Assembly (NCBI RefSeq): GCF_004365705.1 | Contig: NZ_SOBN01000002.1 | Span: 186,001 to 250,000 of the forward strand | Source: Streptomyces sp. 846.5 | GTDB taxonomy: Bacteria > Actinomycetota > Actinomycetes > Streptomycetales > Streptomycetaceae | DNA length: 64,000 nucleotides | Direction of reading: 5' to 3' | Shown here: piece after piece, positions 1-35,453 of the stretch | How positions within the stretch are numbered: position 1 is the first letter of the stretch | Layout of the letters: each line of letters starts with the position of its first letter | Notes under the pieces: generated by a model | The model's database searches: none | The model's input: the letters and a program-made list of their open reading frames with translations, nothing else | What the model was told of the DNA's origin: nothing | Position numbers and translations under genes: made by a program

Positions 1-770
1 TCCCCGGCCTGACCACCGCAGTGGTACTGCCACTGGCCATCGCCGCCATCGCCCTGTCTGCGGGTCTGGCGGCAGCCGCCTTCGTCAAGGCGCTCGGGGT
101 AGGCTTCTTCGCCCGCCCGCGCAGCCCCCAGGCCGCCGCAGCGAAGGAGGCCCCGCCCCTGATGCTGGTCGGCGCGGGCCTGCTCGCCACCGCCTGCGCA
201 GCACTGGCGCTGGTCCCCGGACTGCTGGCGAACGGGCTGTCACGTGCCGTAGCCGCCTCGGGCCTGACGACGGCCCAGCCGCTGACCGGCGGCGAGTTGC
301 AACTGCGGCTCGCCGACATCTCCACCTCCCTCGCCCCGTTGTGGTCGGTGGCCGCCCTGCTGCTGGCAGTCGTGGCCGTCGCGGCAGCGGTGCGTGCCGT
401 GCGGCCCCGGGCCCGGCGCCGCCAGGCCCGGCTGTGGGACTGCGGCGGCGGCGCGCCCTCGGCACGGATGGCCTACACAGCGACCTCGTTCGCCGAACCC
501 CTGCAGCGCGTCTTCGACGACGTCCTGGCCCCCGAGCAGGACCTGGACATCACCCCGGTGCGCGAGTCCGCCTACCTGGTGGAACGGGTGCGCTACCAGC
601 ACAAGGTCCCCGACCGGATCGAGCACCGCCTGTACCGGCCGGTGCTGGCCGCCCTTGATTTCGTGGGCCGGCGCTCGCGGCCGCTGGCGAGCGGCAGTAT
701 CCATCTCTACCTCGGCTACGGGCTGTTCGGCCTGGTCGCCCTCCTGGGAGTGCTGGCGGTGGCCCGATGA
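1..770 (+). CDS. hyfB: HyfB-like proton-translocating membrane subunit, C-terminal part
   Basis: The reading frame is open to the left edge of the window, so only the C-terminal 250 or so residues are present and the real start lies outside. The visible protein has hydrophobic helices near its start, middle and end, separated by a soluble stretch with a VRYQHKVPDRIEHRLY segment. This is the pattern of the C-terminus of NuoL/HyfB-type antiporter-like subunits, which move protons in complex I and group 4 hydrogenase-like complexes. Its stop codon overlaps the start of the next gene by four bases, which indicates an operon with the HyfC-, HyfE-, HyfF- and HyfG-like genes that follow. The assignment rests mostly on gene order and the final soluble loop. 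Confidence 0.8.
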   Translation, partial: PGLTTAVVLPLAIAAIALSAGLAAAAFVKALGVGFFARPRSPQAAAAKEAPPLMLVGAGLLATACAALALVPGLLANGLSRAVAASGLTTAQPLTGGELQLRLADISTSLAPLWSVAALLLAVVAVAAAVRAVRPRARRRQARLWDCGGGAPSARMAYTATSFAEPLQRVFDDVLAPEQDLDITPVRESAYLVERVRYQHKVPDRIEHRLYRPVLAALDFVGRRSRPLASGSIHLYLGYGLFGLVALLGVLAVAR

Positions 771-1735
771 CCAGCCCGTCCAGCGGCCTCGTCCCCTACC
801 TCGCGGTCACCGCGCAGGTCCTGGTCGTGGTCGGCGGCGCGCCGCTGCTGACCGGGCTGATGCGCCAGGTCCGCGCGCGGATGGAGGGCCGCGCCGGGGC
901 CGGGGTCGCCCAACCCTGGCGGGACGCACGCAAGCTGCTGCGCAAGGAGGCGATCAGCCCGGTCGGCACCGGGCCCGCGTTCCGGCTCACTCCGCTGCTG
1001 CTGGTCGCCAGCACCGCGGTCATCGCCGCCCTGGTGCCGCTGGCCTCGACCGACACCCCGTTCAGCGCCCGCGCCGACCTGATCCTGGTGGTCGCCCTGC
1101 TGGCGCTGGGCACCGTGTCGCTGGCCCTGGCCGGCCTGGACACCGGCACCGCGTTCGGCGGCATGGGCGCCTCGCGGGAGATGACCATCGCCGCCCTGGT
1201 CGAGCCGACGATCCTGCTCTCGGTCCTGGCGTTGTCGATACCGGCCGGGTCCACCAGCCTGCCCGCCATCGTGGCAGGACGGATCCACGACCCGAACCGG
1301 CTGGCCTCGCCCTCCGGGCTGCTGGCGATCGTCGCACTGGCGGTGGTCACCCTGGCCGAGGCCGGACGCCTCCCGGTGGACAACCCCTCCACCCACCTGG
1401 AACTGACCATGGTCCACGAGGCCATGATCCTGGAGTACGCAGGCCCGGACCTGGCCCTGGTCGAACTCGGCTCGCAGATGCGGCTGGCCGTCCTGCTCGG
1501 ACTCCTGGCAACCCTGGCCGCCCCGTGGGGCATCGCCACCACCAGCTCCTGGGCGGCGCTCGCACTCGCGCTGCCGCTGCTGGCGGCCAAGGTCGCCCTG
1601 CTGGGGACGGGACTGGCGGCGGTCGAGGTGTTCTGGGCCAAGCTGCGGCTGTTCCGGGTTCCCGAACTGCTGGCCGGATCCTTCCTGCTGGCGGTCCTCG
1701 CAGTGACCGCCTCCTACTTCCTGACCGGAGCGTGA
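767..1735 (+). CDS. hyfC: HyfC/HycD-like membrane subunit (NuoH family)
   Basis: A 322-residue multi-helix membrane protein of the NuoH/HycD/HyfC family, which forms the membrane anchor linking the soluble arm to the proton-pumping arm. Near residues 200-235 it has the family signature EAGRLPVDNPSTHLELTMVH, followed by EYAGPDLAL. The ATG overlaps the stop of the HyfB-like gene, and the length is normal for the family. Together with its neighbours it belongs to a group 4 hydrogenase-like or Ehr complex; the large subunit downstream argues for Ehr. Confidence 0.88.
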   Translation: MTSPSSGLVPYLAVTAQVLVVVGGAPLLTGLMRQVRARMEGRAGAGVAQPWRDARKLLRKEAISPVGTGPAFRLTPLLLVASTAVIAALVPLASTDTPFSARADLILVVALLALGTVSLALAGLDTGTAFGGMGASREMTIAALVEPTILLSVLALSIPAGSTSLPAIVAGRIHDPNRLASPSGLLAIVALAVVTLAEAGRLPVDNPSTHLELTMVHEAMILEYAGPDLALVELGSQMRLAVLLGLLATLAAPWGIATTSSWAALALALPLLAAKVALLGTGLAAVEVFWAKLRLFRVPELLAGSFLLAVLAVTASYFLTGA

Positions 1736-1742
1736 ACCAGCC

Positions 1743-2402
1743 GTGGGCACCGGCCTCTACACACAACTGCTGGACCTGGCCTGCGGTGTGTTCCTGATCG
1801 CCGCCGTCCTGGTGCTCTGGTACCGCGAACTGTCCGCCATCGTGCGGGTGTTCGCGATGCAAGGGGTGGCCCTGGGGGTGATCGGGCTGCTGCTGGGCCT
1901 GCACGAGCAGCGCTGGGGCCTGGTCGGCATCGCCGTGGGCGTCAGTGTGCTGCGGGCCGGGGTGCTGCCGTATCTGATGCGGCGTTCGCTGACCGCGGCC
2001 GGGCAGACCCGGGAGACCCAGCCCCTGGTCAACGTCGCCGCCTCACTGCTGACCGCAGCCGCGCTGACGCTGCTCGCCTACGCCGCCGCGCAGCCGCTGG
2101 TCCAGCTCGCGCCGTCCCCGGCCACCAGGGCCCTGCCGGTGGGGCTGGCCGTGGTGCTGATCGGTTTCTTCGCGCTGGTCACCCGGCGCCGCGCGATCTC
2201 CCAGATCGTGGGCTTCCTGCTGCTGGACAACGGCATCACCGCCAGCGCGTTCCTGGCCACCTCCGGCGTGCCGTTGATCGTGGAACTCGGGGTGGCCTTC
2301 GACCTGCTGCTCGCCGTCCTGGTCCTGCAACTGCTCACCCTGCGGATGCGGACCGCCTTCGGCGACACCGACCTCGACGACCTGCGGGAGCTCCACGACT
2401 AA
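1743..2402 (+). CDS. hyfE: HyfE-like small membrane subunit
   Basis: A 219-residue protein almost entirely made of transmembrane helices, ending in a short charged tail. Position between HyfC- and HyfF-like genes and the VGFLLLDNGITASAF segment (NuoK-like part of HyfE) identify it as the hydrogenase-4 component E type, a fusion-like relative of NuoK/MrpC. The start is GTG eight bases after the hyfC stop, and the gene ends one base into the start codon of the HyfF-like gene, so translation is probably coupled. Confidence 0.85.
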   Translation: MGTGLYTQLLDLACGVFLIAAVLVLWYRELSAIVRVFAMQGVALGVIGLLLGLHEQRWGLVGIAVGVSVLRAGVLPYLMRRSLTAAGQTRETQPLVNVAASLLTAAALTLLAYAAAQPLVQLAPSPATRALPVGLAVVLIGFFALVTRRRAISQIVGFLLLDNGITASAFLATSGVPLIVELGVAFDLLLAVLVLQLLTLRMRTAFGDTDLDDLRELHD

Positions 2403-3910
2403 TGCTGAACCTATTCGGAGTCGACCTGCTGCTGAGTCTCCCGCTCGCCGTACCCGCCCTGACCGCCGCCTGCTACGCCCTGCCGGGCCGACGCCCCGTC
2501 ACCGGCTGGGCCGGAATGCTCTCCCCGGCCGCGATCCTCACCAGCGCGACCACCCTAGCCGCCACCGTCCCCGGCCACGGGCCCGTCCGCGCTTGGGGCC
2601 ACCTGCTGCGCGCCGACGCGCTGGCCGTGTGGATGCTGCTGGTTGTCGGCGCGATCGCCACCCTGGCCGTCGCCGCCGGACCCGCCTACCTGGCCGGGGA
2701 ACGCGACGCGGGAACAGTCGGCGACATCGCCGCCCGCCGCTACTGCCTGCTGGTGCACGCCTTCCTCACCGCCATGGCCCTTGCGGTCCTGGCCGAGAAC
2801 CTGGGCGTGCTGTGGGTCGCGGTCGAGGCCACCACCGTCGTCACCGCCTTCCTGGTCGGCCACCGCCGCACCCGCGCCAGCGTCGAGGCAGCCTGGAAGT
2901 ACGTGGTCATCTGCTCGGTCGGCATCGCCCTGGCGTTCCTCGGCACCGTCCTGCTCTATTACGCCGCCCGCCAGGCCGGACTGTCCGAGGCCGCCGCCCT
3001 GGACTGGCCCACCCTGGCCGCCCGCGCACACCAACTCGACCCCGACACCACCCGGCTGGGCTTCGGCCTGATCGTGCTCGGCTTCGGCGCCAAGGCAGGG
3101 CTCGTCCCCCTGCACGCCTGGCTGCCCGACGCCCACAGCCAGGCCCCCGCCCCCGTCTCCGCCCTGATGTCCGGAGTCCTCCTCTCGGTCTCCTTCACCG
3201 CCGTACTCCGCTACAAGGTCATCGCCGACGCCGCCCTGGGCACCGGCTTCGCCCGCCTGCTGCTCACCGGCACCTCCCTGCTCACCCTCGCCCTGGCCGC
3301 CGGCCTCCTGCTCGCACAGCGCGATTACAAGCGGATGCTGGCGTACTCCAGCATGGAGCACATGAGCCTGATCGCCCTGGGGGCGGCGGTCGGCAGCCCG
3401 CTGGCGATCGCCGCCGTGCTGCTGCACATCGCGGGCCACGGACTGGCCAAGACCGTCGCGTTCTGCTCCGCCGGACAGATCCTGCAGCTGCGCCGCACCA
3501 CCCGCATCGGCCGGCTGCGCGGCCTGCTCGGCCAGGCGCCGACCCTCGGCGCGGCCTTCGGACTGGCCGTGGTCGCCCTGCTCGGGCTGCCGCCCTTCAG
3601 CCTCTTCGCCTCCGAGGTCGGCATCGCCCGCGCCGGCTTCGCCGCCGGACTCGGAGTCCCGATCTCCGCCGCCCTGTTCCTGGTCCTGGCCGCGTTCGCC
3701 GCCCTCGTCCTGCGCAGCACCCGCATGCTGCTGGGCCCGCCGCCGACCGTCCCGACCGGCACCGGCGCCGTTTCGCCACCCGTACGGATCGGGGCGACAG
3801 CCGCGGCGCCGCTGCTCCTCGGGCTGCTGGCCTGCGCCGCCCTGGGCATCACCACCGGGCCGCTGACCGACCTGCTGCACACCGCCGCCACGGTCATCGG
3901 AGGGCACTGA
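2402..3910 (+). CDS. hyfF: HyfF-like proton-translocating subunit (NuoM/NuoN family)
   Basis: A 502-residue polytopic protein of the antiporter-like family. The conserved family positions are visible: a membrane glutamate near residue 142 (WVAVEATT), a lysine near 166 (AWKYVV) and a lysine at 231 followed by PLHAWLPDAHSQAP. These residues carry protons in NuoM-type subunits, so the pump channel looks intact. It overlaps hyfE by one base and lies five bases before the large-subunit gene. It acts in the cytoplasmic membrane as part of the complex described for the neighbours. Confidence 0.88.
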   Translation: MLNLFGVDLLLSLPLAVPALTAACYALPGRRPVTGWAGMLSPAAILTSATTLAATVPGHGPVRAWGHLLRADALAVWMLLVVGAIATLAVAAGPAYLAGERDAGTVGDIAARRYCLLVHAFLTAMALAVLAENLGVLWVAVEATTVVTAFLVGHRRTRASVEAAWKYVVICSVGIALAFLGTVLLYYAARQAGLSEAAALDWPTLAARAHQLDPDTTRLGFGLIVLGFGAKAGLVPLHAWLPDAHSQAPAPVSALMSGVLLSVSFTAVLRYKVIADAALGTGFARLLLTGTSLLTLALAAGLLLAQRDYKRMLAYSSMEHMSLIALGAAVGSPLAIAAVLLHIAGHGLAKTVAFCSAGQILQLRRTTRIGRLRGLLGQAPTLGAAFGLAVVALLGLPPFSLFASEVGIARAGFAAGLGVPISAALFLVLAAFAALVLRSTRMLLGPPPTVPTGTGAVSPPVRIGATAAAPLLLGLLACAALGITTGPLTDLLHTAATVIGGH

Positions 3911-4779
3911 AGCCATGCGCCACCGCACGATCGAGAACCTCGACCCGGCCGGACTCGCCGACCGCGCCCAGGCGTTGCTGGCCCAGGGCAACCGGCTGGG
4001 CCTGGTCGCCGCCCACCACGACGACGACGCCCTGCGCGTCGTCTATCTCTTCCTCTCCGGTCCCCCGGACACCCGCACCGAACTCCATGTCCGTCTGGAC
4101 CCGGTCAAACCCGAACTCCCCACCCTGGCCCATCTGTCGTTCCCCGCCGGGCGGTTCGAGCGCGAGATGCGCGACCTGCACGGCATCGTCCCTCTCGGCC
4201 ACCCGCTGCCACGCCGCCTGGTGCGCCACTACCACTGGCCACGCGGCTGGTACCCCGGCCGCCCCGACGCCGGACCACCCCCGCCCTTCGCCGAACCCGA
4301 AGGCCCCTACCCCTTCCTGGAGGTCGAGGGCGACGGCGTCTACGAGATCCCCGTCGGCCCCGTCCACGCCGGGCTCATCGAACCCGGACACTTCCGCTTC
4401 TCCGTCGTCGGCGAGACCATCCTCAAACTCAAGATCCGCCTGTGGTTCGTCCACAAGGGCATCGAGAGACTCTTCGAAGGCCGCACCGTCGAGCGCGGCC
4501 TGCCCCTGGCCGAGCGCATCAGCGGCGACACCGCGGTGGGCCACGCCCTCGCCTACTGCCTGGCCGTCGAGGAAGCCACCGCCACCACCGTCCCCGAACC
4601 CGCCCACCAAGCGCGCGCCATGCTGCTGGAGCTGGAGCGGCTGCACAACCACGTCGCCGACCTCGGCGCCCTGTGCAACGACGTCGGCCACGGCATCCTG
4701 CACGCCCACACCCAGCGCATCCGCGAACAACTCCTCCGCCTGATTCGAAAATCCCCCGCTCCGTGACCGTTTCCGCTGT

Positions 4780-6018
4780 TCAGAGCACTCCGATGGGTTG
4801 GAGGTTGACTTGGTAGCCGAGTTGGTTGAGTTGGCTGATGAGCCGTCGGGTCGCTCTGGTCTTGCCGGTGCGTTCGAGGAAGTAGTCGCCGCCGAGGTCG
4901 GCGTACTCGGCATCGTTGGTGAACATGTGCCAGATGGCGACGAGGATGGAGTGCTCCAGAGCGACAAGGGCTCTCTTCTTGCCGCGGCGTCCGACCAGGC
5001 GCCGGTATCGGGAGGCGAGGTAGGTGTCCTTGGTGCGGGAGGCGGCGACGGCAGCCTGTCCGAGGGCGGCCTTGAGCCAGGGGTCGCCGTGCCGGGTCTT
5101 CCCGCTGCTGCTCTTGCCGGCCGATTCGTGGTTGCCGGGGCAGACGCCGGCCCAGGACGCCAGATCGCCGGCGGTGGGGAACCGCTCCATCTGGGCCCCG
5201 ATCTCGGCCAGGATCACCTCGGCGGCGCGGGTGCCCACTCCGGGGATCGTGATCAGCAGGTCGATGCGGCGGCGAAAGGGCCGCACCTGCGCGTCGATCC
5301 GCTCGCTCAGCCGGTTCTCCATCGCCGTGCAGGCGTCGATCCGGTCGAGCATGGCCCGCAGCAAGAACGCGTGGTGGTCGGTGAAGTTGCCGGTCAGTGC
5401 CTCGACGAGGTCGGCGGTCTTGCGGCGCATGCTGCCCAGCGCCAGGTCCGCGAGCCGTCCGGGGTCACGTTCCCCGCCGATCAGGGCCTCCAGCATGGCC
5501 CGGGCCGACTTGCCCGTCAGGTCGGAGACCACGCTGGACAGCTTGATCCCGGAGTCCTCCAGCAGCTTCTCCGTCCGCTGGATCTCGCGGGTGCGCTCCC
5601 GGATGACCTCGGTGCGGTAGCGGGTCAGGTCCCGCAGCTGCCGGATCGGCTCCGGGGGCACGAAGCTGGCGCGGACCAGCCCGTACTCGACCAGCCGGGC
5701 AATCCACTCGGAGTCCTTCACGTCGGTCTTGCGGCCGGGCACCGACTTCATGTGCCGGGCGTTCAGCAGCCAGCACTCGATGTCGTGCTCCAGCAGGTAG
5801 AACACCGGCTTCCAGTACACGCCGGTGGCTTCCATGCCGACCACGGTCACGCCCTCGGCCAGCAGCCAGTCCCGCATCGCCAGCAGTCCGCTGGTGACCG
5901 CGGGGAAGGTGCGGACCTCGCTGCGGCGCCGCTTCCCGGTGCTGGGCGCCCTCACGCACACCTTCACGTCGACCTTGCTGATGTCGATCCCCGCACACCG
6001 TTCGTGGATCACGTCCAT
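4780..6018 (-). CDS. IS110-family transposase (DEDD recombinase)
   Basis: A 412-residue IS110 recombinase. The N-terminal RuvC-like domain shows D12 (GIDISK), E63 (VGMEATG) and D99/D102 (RKTDVKDSEW). The C-terminal Tnp domain has ITIPGVGTRAAE and ASWAGVCPGNHESAG, followed by the serine-rich GKSSSGKTRHGD region that holds the nucleophilic serine in characterised members. The open frame and key residues are intact, so the enzyme looks active. It is encoded antisense to the interrupted hydrogenase-like gene, with its start at the inner edge of the long non-coding end. Confidence 0.95.
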   Translation of the reverse strand: MDVIHERCAGIDISKVDVKVCVRAPSTGKRRRSEVRTFPAVTSGLLAMRDWLLAEGVTVVGMEATGVYWKPVFYLLEHDIECWLLNARHMKSVPGRKTDVKDSEWIARLVEYGLVRASFVPPEPIRQLRDLTRYRTEVIRERTREIQRTEKLLEDSGIKLSSVVSDLTGKSARAMLEALIGGERDPGRLADLALGSMRRKTADLVEALTGNFTDHHAFLLRAMLDRIDACTAMENRLSERIDAQVRPFRRRIDLLITIPGVGTRAAEVILAEIGAQMERFPTAGDLASWAGVCPGNHESAGKSSSGKTRHGDPWLKAALGQAAVAASRTKDTYLASRYRRLVGRRGKKRALVALEHSILVAIWHMFTNDAEYADLGGDYFLERTGKTRATRRLISQLNQLGYQVNLQPIGVL

Positions 6019-6254
6019 CGCCCCGGCACCTCCCTCCCTCGACAGCCGCGAGCGCGTGGCCGTCCAGCGGGGGTCCGCAGGCGTAAGAGTCTGATTCGCG
6101 TGCTCGGAGCAACATTTCCGGGTGCCTGTCGGTGGACCCCCAGCGTCCTACTGAACCGCGGGCTCGGAACGCGCCAAGGCGAAACGACGTCGGCCAGACG
6201 GCCACCAACCAGATTTTCACCCACTCAGGGTCTGCCCGTAAGGGCTTCGGACTA
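6019..6254 (-). ncRNA. Candidate IS110 bridge RNA (seekRNA) region
   Basis: This 236-base non-coding stretch lies directly upstream of the transposase, where IS110-subgroup elements encode their bridge RNA. Read in the element's direction, GGTTCAGTAG (plus-strand 6148-6157) repeats the sequence across the target/element junction at 6252-6261. Further 3', CGAATCAG (plus-strand 6091-6098) repeats the other end of the element across the core (4740-4747). A target-matching segment followed by a donor-matching segment is the order described for bridge RNA loops. RNA boundaries and folding were not computed. Class and position are well supported; exact ends are inference. Confidence 0.65.
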
Positions 6255-6910
6255 CTGAACCAACAAGTGACCGGACACCGGCTGCTGCGCGGCGGGGTCC
6301 TGCCCGGCGGCTCCCGCCTGCTCGCCCTGCCCGACCCCGGGCAGCTACGGGCTGTCGGGGCCGACATCCGCGAGACCGTGCAGCTCGCACTCGGCCACAG
6401 CACCGTGCGCGACCGTTTCACCGGCACCGCCCGCCTCAGCACCGAGGCAGCCCGGGACCTGGGCTGCCTGGGCTACGTCGCCCGCGCCAGCGGCCTGCCC
6501 GGCGACGCCCGCACCGCCCACCCCCACCACGACCACGCCGACGCGCTGACCGTCCCGACCCTCTCCGGCGGCGACGTCCTGGCCCGCTTCCGGATCCGCG
6601 CCCAGGAGATCGAGGTCTCCCTCGCGCTGATCGACCAGCTCCTCGCCGGTGGCCTGGCTCCGGGCGAGGCTCTCGTCCCGCTGAACAGCAGTGCGGGCCC
6701 GGGCTCGGGGGTCGGCATCACCGAGGGCTGGCGCGGCACCGTCACCACCCGCGTCGAGCTCGCCCCCGACGGCACCCTGGCCCGGGTCAAGCCCGTCGAC
6801 CCGTCCTTCTTCAACTGGCCCGCGCTTCCGGTCGCCCTGGCCGACACCATCGTCCCGGACTTCCCGCTGACCAATAAGAGCTTCAACCTCTCCTACGCAG
6901 GCAACGACCT

Positions 6911-7018
6911 ATGACCCGAAACCGGGTCCGCCAGGCCGGGGGCGCCGGTTCACACCCCGGGTCCTTCCAGGCGGCAGACATCCAAGCGATCCCGAAGGGT
7001 GTGTCCAGTGAACATTAG
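6911..7018 (+). other. Short reading frame overlapping the large-subunit stop
   Basis: An ATG overlaps the stop of the large-subunit gene (ATGA) and opens a frame of 35 codons that ends in TAG at 7016. In related operons the HyfI/NuoB-like small subunit starts here, but I cannot recognise that protein in these residues. The frame ends inside an IS-end-like motif at 7013-7030. It may be the first codons of the next operon gene, cut off by a rearrangement. Confidence 0.3.
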
Positions 7019-34434: not shown

Positions 34435-34933
34435 GGGGCAACACCGCCGGCACGGAGGTGACCCCGGGCCGAACTGCGCGGTGACCAGGGCCTGCAGAAC
34501 CAGGTCGCCGTACTGCGAGAGCGTCAACGACGACCAGGCCGACGACGAACGCGATGCCGCCGTCGAACGGATGCGCCGCGACCCCGGCGTCCAGGTCTCC
34601 ATCGTCCTCGCCGAGACACTGAATGCCTGGGCCCGTACCGACGCCTCGGGTGCCGGCGGCCGCGGGCACCGCCCGCAGCGTCCTGTCCACTTCGGATGCA
34701 GGCACCCGCCACGCGGCGCCACCGAGCCTGAAGTTCGCCTCACTCGGAACCGCCCCGCTCGCCACGTCAAGATCAACTTAAGCTTCGCGGCATTGGCCCA
34801 GGCCGTCACGCTGCTGAGGCACCGCCCCAGTCCCGTGAGCACGGGTCAGGGTTCAGCAGTACCCGGTGCTCGGGGTGCCCCAGTCGGAGCCGGTTCCCCC
34901 GCGGCCGACGCCTACTACGGCGCGGGACCGAAC
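34435..34933 (+). other. Region with no clear gene
   Basis: About 500 bases after the SDR gene. A plus frame contains NDDQADDERDAAVERMRRDP and AETLNAWARTD without a family I recognise, in poor codon context. It is probably decayed coding DNA leading into an IS110 remnant. Confidence 0.3.
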
Positions 34934-35092
34934 AGCGAGGCCGAGCTGCTGCAACTGCTGGGCGAAGTGCTGGAGCTGGCCAAGCGTGGTCCCGTGACCT
35001 GGGCGGTGGACCTGAACGCCGGCGGTGCCGCGCTGTGGATCGCCCTGCTGGTGGCCCACGGGCAGAAGCTGTTCTACATCCCGGGCCGGAAG
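34934..35092 (+). pseudogene. IS110-family transposase fragment
   Basis: The frame reads SEAELLQLLGEVLELAKRGP, then VTWAVDLNAGGAALWIALLV and HGQKLFYIPGR. This is the N-terminal RuvC-like part of a Streptomyces IS110 transposase of a different subtype from the intact one at 4780-6018. Both ends are missing. The following 360 bases, up to 35453, hold nothing I recognise. Confidence 0.65.
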
Positions 35093-35453
35093 TCCCGGCC
35101 CCGGCCTGGACGCCTGCCGTCGAGCCCGACGGCCAGGTCCGCGACGGCACCCTGAGAGTGGCCGTTCCGGGCTACGGGAACGGTGCAGTTGGCGCATAGT
35201 GGCACCGGGCTTCTCTGTCCTGGCCGCCGACCTGGGCCTCTAGCCTCCGCACGAGATCCGCCAGCGACGCGGACCGCACCCAGCAGGTGAAGGGCGCAAA
35301 ACTACCTACGTCGCGAAGCCGGAGCACATCCTGCAAGGTCAGGAGTGCAGCCAAGCTCACCGCCTGGCAGCAGCCTCCAGTCCTCGTGAAAGCCTGAGGC
35401 TAAGGACGCTGGGCGTGGCGCGCAGCCAACTACCGATGATCAAGGGAAGTTCA

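Follow-up and report, generated by a model that had tools for sequence, protein, structure and literature searches.

An RNA encoded on the minus strand at positions 6203-6058 of the window, the whole 64,000-nucleotide stretch of Streptomyces sp. 846.5 analysed here, is very probably the bridge RNA of an IS110-family insertion sequence, with guides in swapped order that select the site CGC-CT-GAACC. The guide order is opposite to that of IS621 and of the published ISEc21 and the same as that of the published IS1111 group, although the RNA is located upstream of the gene as in IS110. The ends of the element, its site, the covariation of guides and sites and the conserved RNA structure are direct results. 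Bridge RNAs as a type are already known; swapped guides in an upstream RNA are new within the running texts of the literature searched, and such an order may already appear in PMC11208160, where ISAar29, ISPpu10 and ISHne5 are drawn.

The element, its copies and its insertion site

A search of the host genome (9.03 Mb, 5 contigs) with window positions 4700-6300 revealed seven full copies of the element. All seven are identical over 1,522 bp (4740-6261 in the window); outside the site, no relationship is apparent among their flanks. The element comprises 1,515 bp when the shared CTGA is counted once; the second copy of CTGA is found at 6255-6258. The insertion site is CGCCTGAACC in 7/7 copies and reads CGC-CT-GAACC on the plus strand at every one of them, with CTGA bounding the element on both sides. 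No inverted repeats of at least 8 bases were found between the outer 80 bases of the two ends, and the longest subterminal inverted repeat, GAAAATC, has 7 bases located 43 and 7 from the ends, at places that do not match. Site-specific insertion at a short shared core (CTGA) without long terminal inverted repeats corresponds to the IS110 family in the broad sense.

The recombinase likewise displays the composition of this broad family, with a DEDD RuvC-like domain (PF01548), PF02371 and a conserved serine. Its weak alignment to the IS621 recombinase (8wt6; E 3.1e-11) preserves the catalytic D, E, D, D and S positions, and the motif after the conserved serine is SA in the window's recombinase and SG in IS621. 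The pattern G--P----S was found in 20 of the 22 rows that form the clade; 16 of these have SA, and SG is present in L050, L055, L011 and L135. A partial IS110 RuvC-like match elsewhere in the window (34928-35098, plus strand; G000:C2:220928-221098), whose 27.4 bits fall short of the family cut-off, is perhaps a remnant.

The Pfam domains of the two pieces that border the element (Table 1) imply that the split gene is of the complex I / NiFe hydrogenase type. The region 767-6914 contains complex I / hydrogenase-type membrane subunit genes (PF00146, PF00361) and, after them, the interrupted gene.

Table 1. Features of the element and of the gene it interrupts, in window coordinates (LE, the RNA-side end; RE, the far end)
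Feature	Position	Strand	Basis
Interrupted gene, 5' piece	3915..4739	+	Pfam PF00329 and PF00374; complex I 30 kDa / NiFe hydrogenase type
IS110-family insertion sequence	4740..6254	-	7 identical copies, unrelated flanks
RE terminus CTGATTCG	4740..4747	+	Donor half matched by 3' donor guide
Recombinase (transposase) gene, 412 aa	4780..6018	-	Pfam PF01548 98.5 bits, PF02371 79.7 bits
Bridge-RNA-like structured RNA (closing stem, target loop, donor loop)	6058..6203	-	RNAalifold, 16 RNAs
3' donor guide CGAAUCAG	6091..6098	-	Exact match to RE terminus; covaries with RE end in relatives
Possible 5' donor guide GUUGCU	6108..6113	-	Proposed from the sequence
3' target guide GGUUC-AG	6151..6157	-	Matches flank at LE end; covariation
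5' target guide UUUCGC-CU	6177..6184	-	CGCCU matches site half at RE end; covariation
LE junction CTA-CTGA-ACC	6252..6261	+	CT-GAACC is the target half matched by 3' target guide
Interrupted gene, 3' piece	6258..6914	+	Pfam PF00346; 49 kDa subunit type

The candidate bridge RNA and its covariation with the sites

The original prediction placed a bridge-RNA-like RNA upstream of the intact IS110 recombinase gene, with a target loop preceding a donor loop and a guide still matching the occupied site, and our analysis supports it in these three respects. The repeats from which it started are exact, CTACTGAACC at 6148-6157 and 6252-6261 and CTGATTCG at 6091-6098 and 4740-4747, and both exceed chance. 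Of 2,000 dinucleotide shuffles of the 222-nt non-coding end, none reproduced the complete 9-mer GGTTCAGTA of the RNA-side junction, and 5 reproduced 8 of the 9 bases of the other end. Within the 10-base match, only CTGAACC (6151-6157) represents the guide plus the core, the informative part being GGTTC with the AG of the core. The remaining CTA is part of a linker, read as UAG in the RNA, that is conserved, not invariant, and happens to match the AGTA start of the element. The two guide-like segments correspond to 3' guides, both on the 3' side of their loops; the 5' target guide at 6184-6177 had been overlooked.

The RNAalifold consensus of 16 RNAs consists of a closing stem, a target loop formed by the stem CGUC/GACG, the 5' guide, a hairpin and the 3' guide, and a donor loop. 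The guides are unpaired in this fold, and the target pair flanks the hairpin. Compensatory changes are present in the closing stem and in the donor stem, while the target stem is invariant across the 16 RNAs and is, therefore, uninformative. The consensus scores -87.3 on the minus strand and -76.1 on the plus strand, compared with -64.0 +/- 3.9 (minimum -75.0) when the columns of the minus-strand alignment were shuffled 100 times; both strands thus score better than the shuffled alignments, the minus strand by the wider margin. Single-sequence folds are not more stable than their shuffles (z 0.59 and -0.14) and were dropped as evidence for this reason. As to whether the predicted segments lie in stems, one of these folds pairs GGUUC with GAGCC, but the 16-sequence consensus positions it in an internal loop. 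A covariance model built from the 16 RNAs, the window's own among them, matches 6203-6058 with 155.1 bits, the next best match in the window having 12.0; a search of Rfam with window 4600-6400 gave no match at E up to 1.

Relatives of the element occur in Streptomyces and neighbours, and were sampled from 14 genomes of the genus, 394 of the family, 392 of a related genus and 394 of the class, together with 6 loci from named genomes. The covariation table contains 35 sites of 21 elements, with L049 merged with L050/L068 as a single element. Clades B, C and D were excluded, as were L098 (LE junction the same as in L094), L056 and L057 (duplicates of L050 and L051), L053 and L054 (truncated) and L100 (contig end). 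L094 and L098 are two copies of one relative in head-to-tail arrangement, their genes lying about 340 bases apart. Each test used the elements for which the respective flank or end is known (20, 19 and 19 of the 21).

The 3' target guide shares 5.31 of 7 identities with its own LE flank and 2.66 with permuted ones (n=20). The reverse complement of the 5' target guide shares 3.53 of 6 with the RE flank (permuted 2.02, n=19), and the donor guide 5.53 of 7 with the RE end (permuted 3.80, n=19). None of 20,000 permutations reached the own score in any of the three tests, and the same result was obtained for the close clade alone (16 elements). When the elements were collapsed to distinct guides (13, 16 and 7), 0, 0 and 115 of 50,000 permutations did so. 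The permutation test ignores relatedness, and two wrong pairings gave 332 and 1,121 of 20,000, indicating that a weak background of relatedness exists. The own site was the best or tied for 12/20 elements with the 3' guide, 8/19 with the 5' guide and 19/19 with the donor guide; matches of the 5' guide are poor at L049, L058, L075, L077 and L101.

A scan along the columns of the 16 aligned RNAs, in which the absent LE flank of L052 was replaced by that of its sister L132, located the best peak for the LE flank at column 51 (z 8.6, own 4.85/5), the best peak for the complement of the RE flank at column 21 (z 6.6, 3.23/5) and the donor match at column 113 (z 5.3, 4.94/5). Further peaks at column 138 (RE end, z 5.4, 1.06/5) and column 120 (same-sense RE flank, z 4.0, 1.64/5) are taken as background. 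Two loops whose guides covary with both sides of the target and with the RE side of the donor are the attributes of a bridge RNA.

The same segment is not kept at unrelated targets: the seven identical copies share CGCCTGAACC amid otherwise unrelated flanks, and relatives with different guides occupy different sites, guide and site changing together at 71-82% protein identity. This natural covariation suggests that the recombinase may be programmable, as was originally claimed.

In the proposed mechanism, a hairpin would separate the two target guides of the first loop. On the RE side of the site, the 5' guide CGC-CU would pair with the transposase-sense strand; on the LE side, the 3' guide GGUUC-AG would pair with the other strand. 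Both guides would overlap the CT core, which is not on the strand of the recombinase gene but on its complement. The second loop would read the element's own ends likewise, with the 3' guide CGAAUCAG for RE and a presumed 5' guide for LE; the candidate GUUGCU would pair with the LE terminus AGTAGT, partly through G-U pairs. Together, the loops would select CGC-CT-GAACC and join the circular element there, leaving CTGA at both junctions. We infer that the RNA is transcribed and bound by the recombinase, which would catalyse the joining of a circular intermediate. For a presumed promoter at the circle junction, the best pairs reach 7/12 matches to simple hexamers and none reaches 8/12.

Guide order in known systems and alternative readings

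IS621, as described in the texts of PMC11208160 and PMC11208158, and the element have in common a DEDD plus serine recombinase, an upstream RNA with a target loop followed by a donor loop, two guides per loop around a hairpin (the 5' donor guide of the element being a candidate), a CT core and the absence of long inverted repeats. CT lies on the strand of the gene in IS621, as these texts describe it, and on the strand opposite to the gene in the element, whose recombinase of 412 aa bears weak similarity to the 326 aa of IS621. Two E. coli copies of IS621 carry the 5' guide AUCGGGCCU, the counterpart of ATCAGGC-CT in the LE-side flank. The 5' guide of IS621 thus copies the LE-side flank, whereas that of the window is the complement of the RE-side flank and its 3' guide copies the LE side. 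Because the halves are swapped with respect to IS621, the orientation of the element in its target is opposite relative to the CT core.

The element has the long non-coding region with a candidate guide RNA upstream of the gene that is typical of the IS110 group and, like the upstream region of ISEc21 in the text of PMC11187229, this region matches both target strands. The bottom-strand match comes first and the top-strand match second in the published ISEc21, an order also seen in IS621, whereas the top-strand match comes first in the element. In the IS1111 members tested in the same text (ISEc11, ISKpn4 and ISPa11), the RNA is downstream of the gene and its top-strand match is 5' of the bottom-strand match, an order shared by the element.

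The F family of the same genome (L105-L110) served as a control. Like the element, it has an IS110-type recombinase and an upstream region with target and donor segments. Its six copies, with three different LE flanks, display the usual IS621 order: TCAGGCGGC, a copy of the LE flank, is at 70 of the region, TTGGGAAG, a copy of the RE end, at 138, and CGTAAGGC, the complement of the LE start, at 162 (3, 6 and 2 of 1,000 shuffles, respectively).

Could the element be read in this usual order as well? GGUUCAG and CGAAUCAG would then be the 5' (left) guides of an IS621-like bridge RNA, with the right guides further 3'. Both copy, in the transposase sense, the flank and the end for which IS621 uses its 5' guides, the target loop precedes the donor loop, and GACUCUU after CGAAUCAG resembles, in this one element, part of the complement of the LE start. 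We nevertheless consider this arrangement improbable, and it was rejected because UAGGACGC, which follows the LE-side guide on its 3' side, hardly changes between elements with differing RE flanks and so cannot specify those flanks, whereas covariation with them is seen 5' of the hairpin. The consensus fold also positions GGUUCAG on the 3' side of its loop, and the F family, read in the same way, does give the usual order. A functional RNA from the plus strand is very improbable. The plus strand yields a slightly better single-sequence fold (-62.0 vs -57.5 kcal/mol; z -0.62 vs -0.14) and its consensus, too, beats all 100 column shuffles, but this candidate was rejected because the consensus fold favours the minus strand. 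Guides able to pair with the 3' half of each strand and to overlap at the CT core, the arrangement described in the texts on IS621 (PMC11208160, PMC11208158), come only from the minus strand.

Membership in the IS1111 group, which would account for the top-strand match lying 5' of the bottom-strand match as in the text of PMC11187229, seems less probable still. ISKpn2, the sole IS1111-like row of the recombinase tree, attaches beside this clade (94/88, with a long branch and a midpoint root), and was itself provisionally classed by us as IS1111-like from an 11-base repeat and a downstream non-coding region. The assignment was rejected because the RNA (6203-6058) and the gene (6018-4780) share a strand on which the RNA is upstream, not downstream. 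The text of PMC11187229 describes for IS1111, along with the downstream RNA, subterminal inverted repeats (7-17 bp) close to each end; in the element these are absent at matching places, and 412 aa falls within the 395-455 published there for the IS110 subgroup, not the 330-350 of IS1111. The least probable of the alternatives is a choice of the site by the protein, with the repeats of the leader being relics or recombinase binding sites. A protein reader would produce the same single site common to identical copies, but this reading was rejected because guide and site switch jointly in the relatives. A bridge RNA with swapped guides is the reading that we retain.

Wider relatives and the stop codons at the sites

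The covariance model, searched against 24 sources, locates the RNA 5' of the recombinase gene in L009/L010 of clade B, L011 of clade C, L066 and L063 of clade D, and also in L134, L138 (Mycobacterium avium), L026, L024, L029, L133 (Caballeronia) and L136 (Paenibacillus), with E values from 9e-13 to 7e-5 and in relatives as far as about 44% protein identity. The match in L137 is weak (E 0.069) and that in L135 at noise level only; none was found at E up to 10 in IS621 (L103, L104), F (L107), ISEc32, IS1000A, ISKpn2, L252 or L256. In a tree of 28 recombinases, the rows with this RNA form one group together with L135, L137 and L256 (96/95), apart from IS621, ISEc32, IS1000A, L252, F and ISKpn2; the tree has several long branches and a midpoint root. 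In the IS110 elements L135 (Bradyrhizobium) and L137 (Citrobacter), AAAAAAC is present both close to the left end and within the RNA region that precedes the transposase, and may be their target. At L009 (G000:C2:1944783-1947636), the clade B element adjoins a diverged IS110 piece.

In clade C, CCTGAGTCA is present at the LE junction of 10/10 copies, with 7 different flanks as read by eye, and the RNA carries CCTGAGTC at the position of the 3' guide. Among the 20 loci of clade D examined, the LE junction reads CAGGTCAG, as in the guide, in 12 of the 14 located and CTGGTCAG in the other 2/14. Conservation of the RE flank is not visible in clades C and D. F-family elements (L106, L108, L109, L110) occupy the 3' end of the recombinase gene in four elements of clade C (L012, L013, L018, L019); one IS110 family uses another as a landing site.

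For the distant elements, the donor segment is significant in all four, with 4 (Caballeronia), 20 (L134), 6 (Paenibacillus) and 4 (M. avium) of 2,000 shuffles. The corresponding values for the target segment are 8 for Paenibacillus, the only significant one, 149 for Caballeronia, 201 for M. avium and 1,530 for L134. The homology of the RNA and partial matches of the 5' segment seen by eye are only suggestive of a swapped guide order in these elements.

At 5/7 copies, an in-frame open frame of 300 nt or more, with a clear third-position GC bias, terminates at the site's TGA, and the element's own end (CTGATTCG) restores TGA at these five. The exceptions are the window's own copy, which splits a gene, and L005. 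The GCCTGAACC sites number 107 in the genome, 100 of which were listed; 11 of the 94 unoccupied ones tested conform to the same rule, as do 3/21 of those reading CGCCTGAACC. The one-sided Fisher values for occupied versus unoccupied sites are 0.0009 (GCCTGAACC) and 0.009 (CGCCTGAACC), under a rule that was fixed after the occupied sites had been inspected. A looser stop rule is passed by 13 and 4 unoccupied sites, respectively (Fisher 0.0018 and 0.020). This excess of stop codons may reflect targeting or selection against gene loss. The pattern, with a long in-frame open frame and third-position GC bias, is displayed by 3/22 sites of the relatives (L051, L055 and L102), and in clade D by 1/14 (L096; 20 loci given, 14 with both ends located); stop codons as a rule of the whole branch were rejected on these counts.

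Bridge recombinases are under development as programmable insertion tools, and in the texts of PMC11208160 and PMC11187229 the side with upstream RNA has so far been tested with IS621 and its close orthologues and ISEc21. The families with 7 and 10 natural copies in this genome make guide-target rules readable from nature. A natural multi-copy system with readable guides in swapped order would extend the tool set and need a different design rule for orientation.

The element would also separate RNA position from guide order, traits that are coupled in the IS110/IS1111 comparison in the text of PMC11187229. We see an even chance that three statements hold jointly: that guide order tracks the recombinase lineage and not the position of the RNA, that an IS110 branch with recombinases of about 400-460 aa is swapped, and that the guide of the window's element reads a stop-codon context. 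If true, the swapped branch would span Actinomycetota, Bacillota and Pseudomonadota and lie in its targets in the opposite orientation, and the stop-context guide would leave the gene whole in most insertions.
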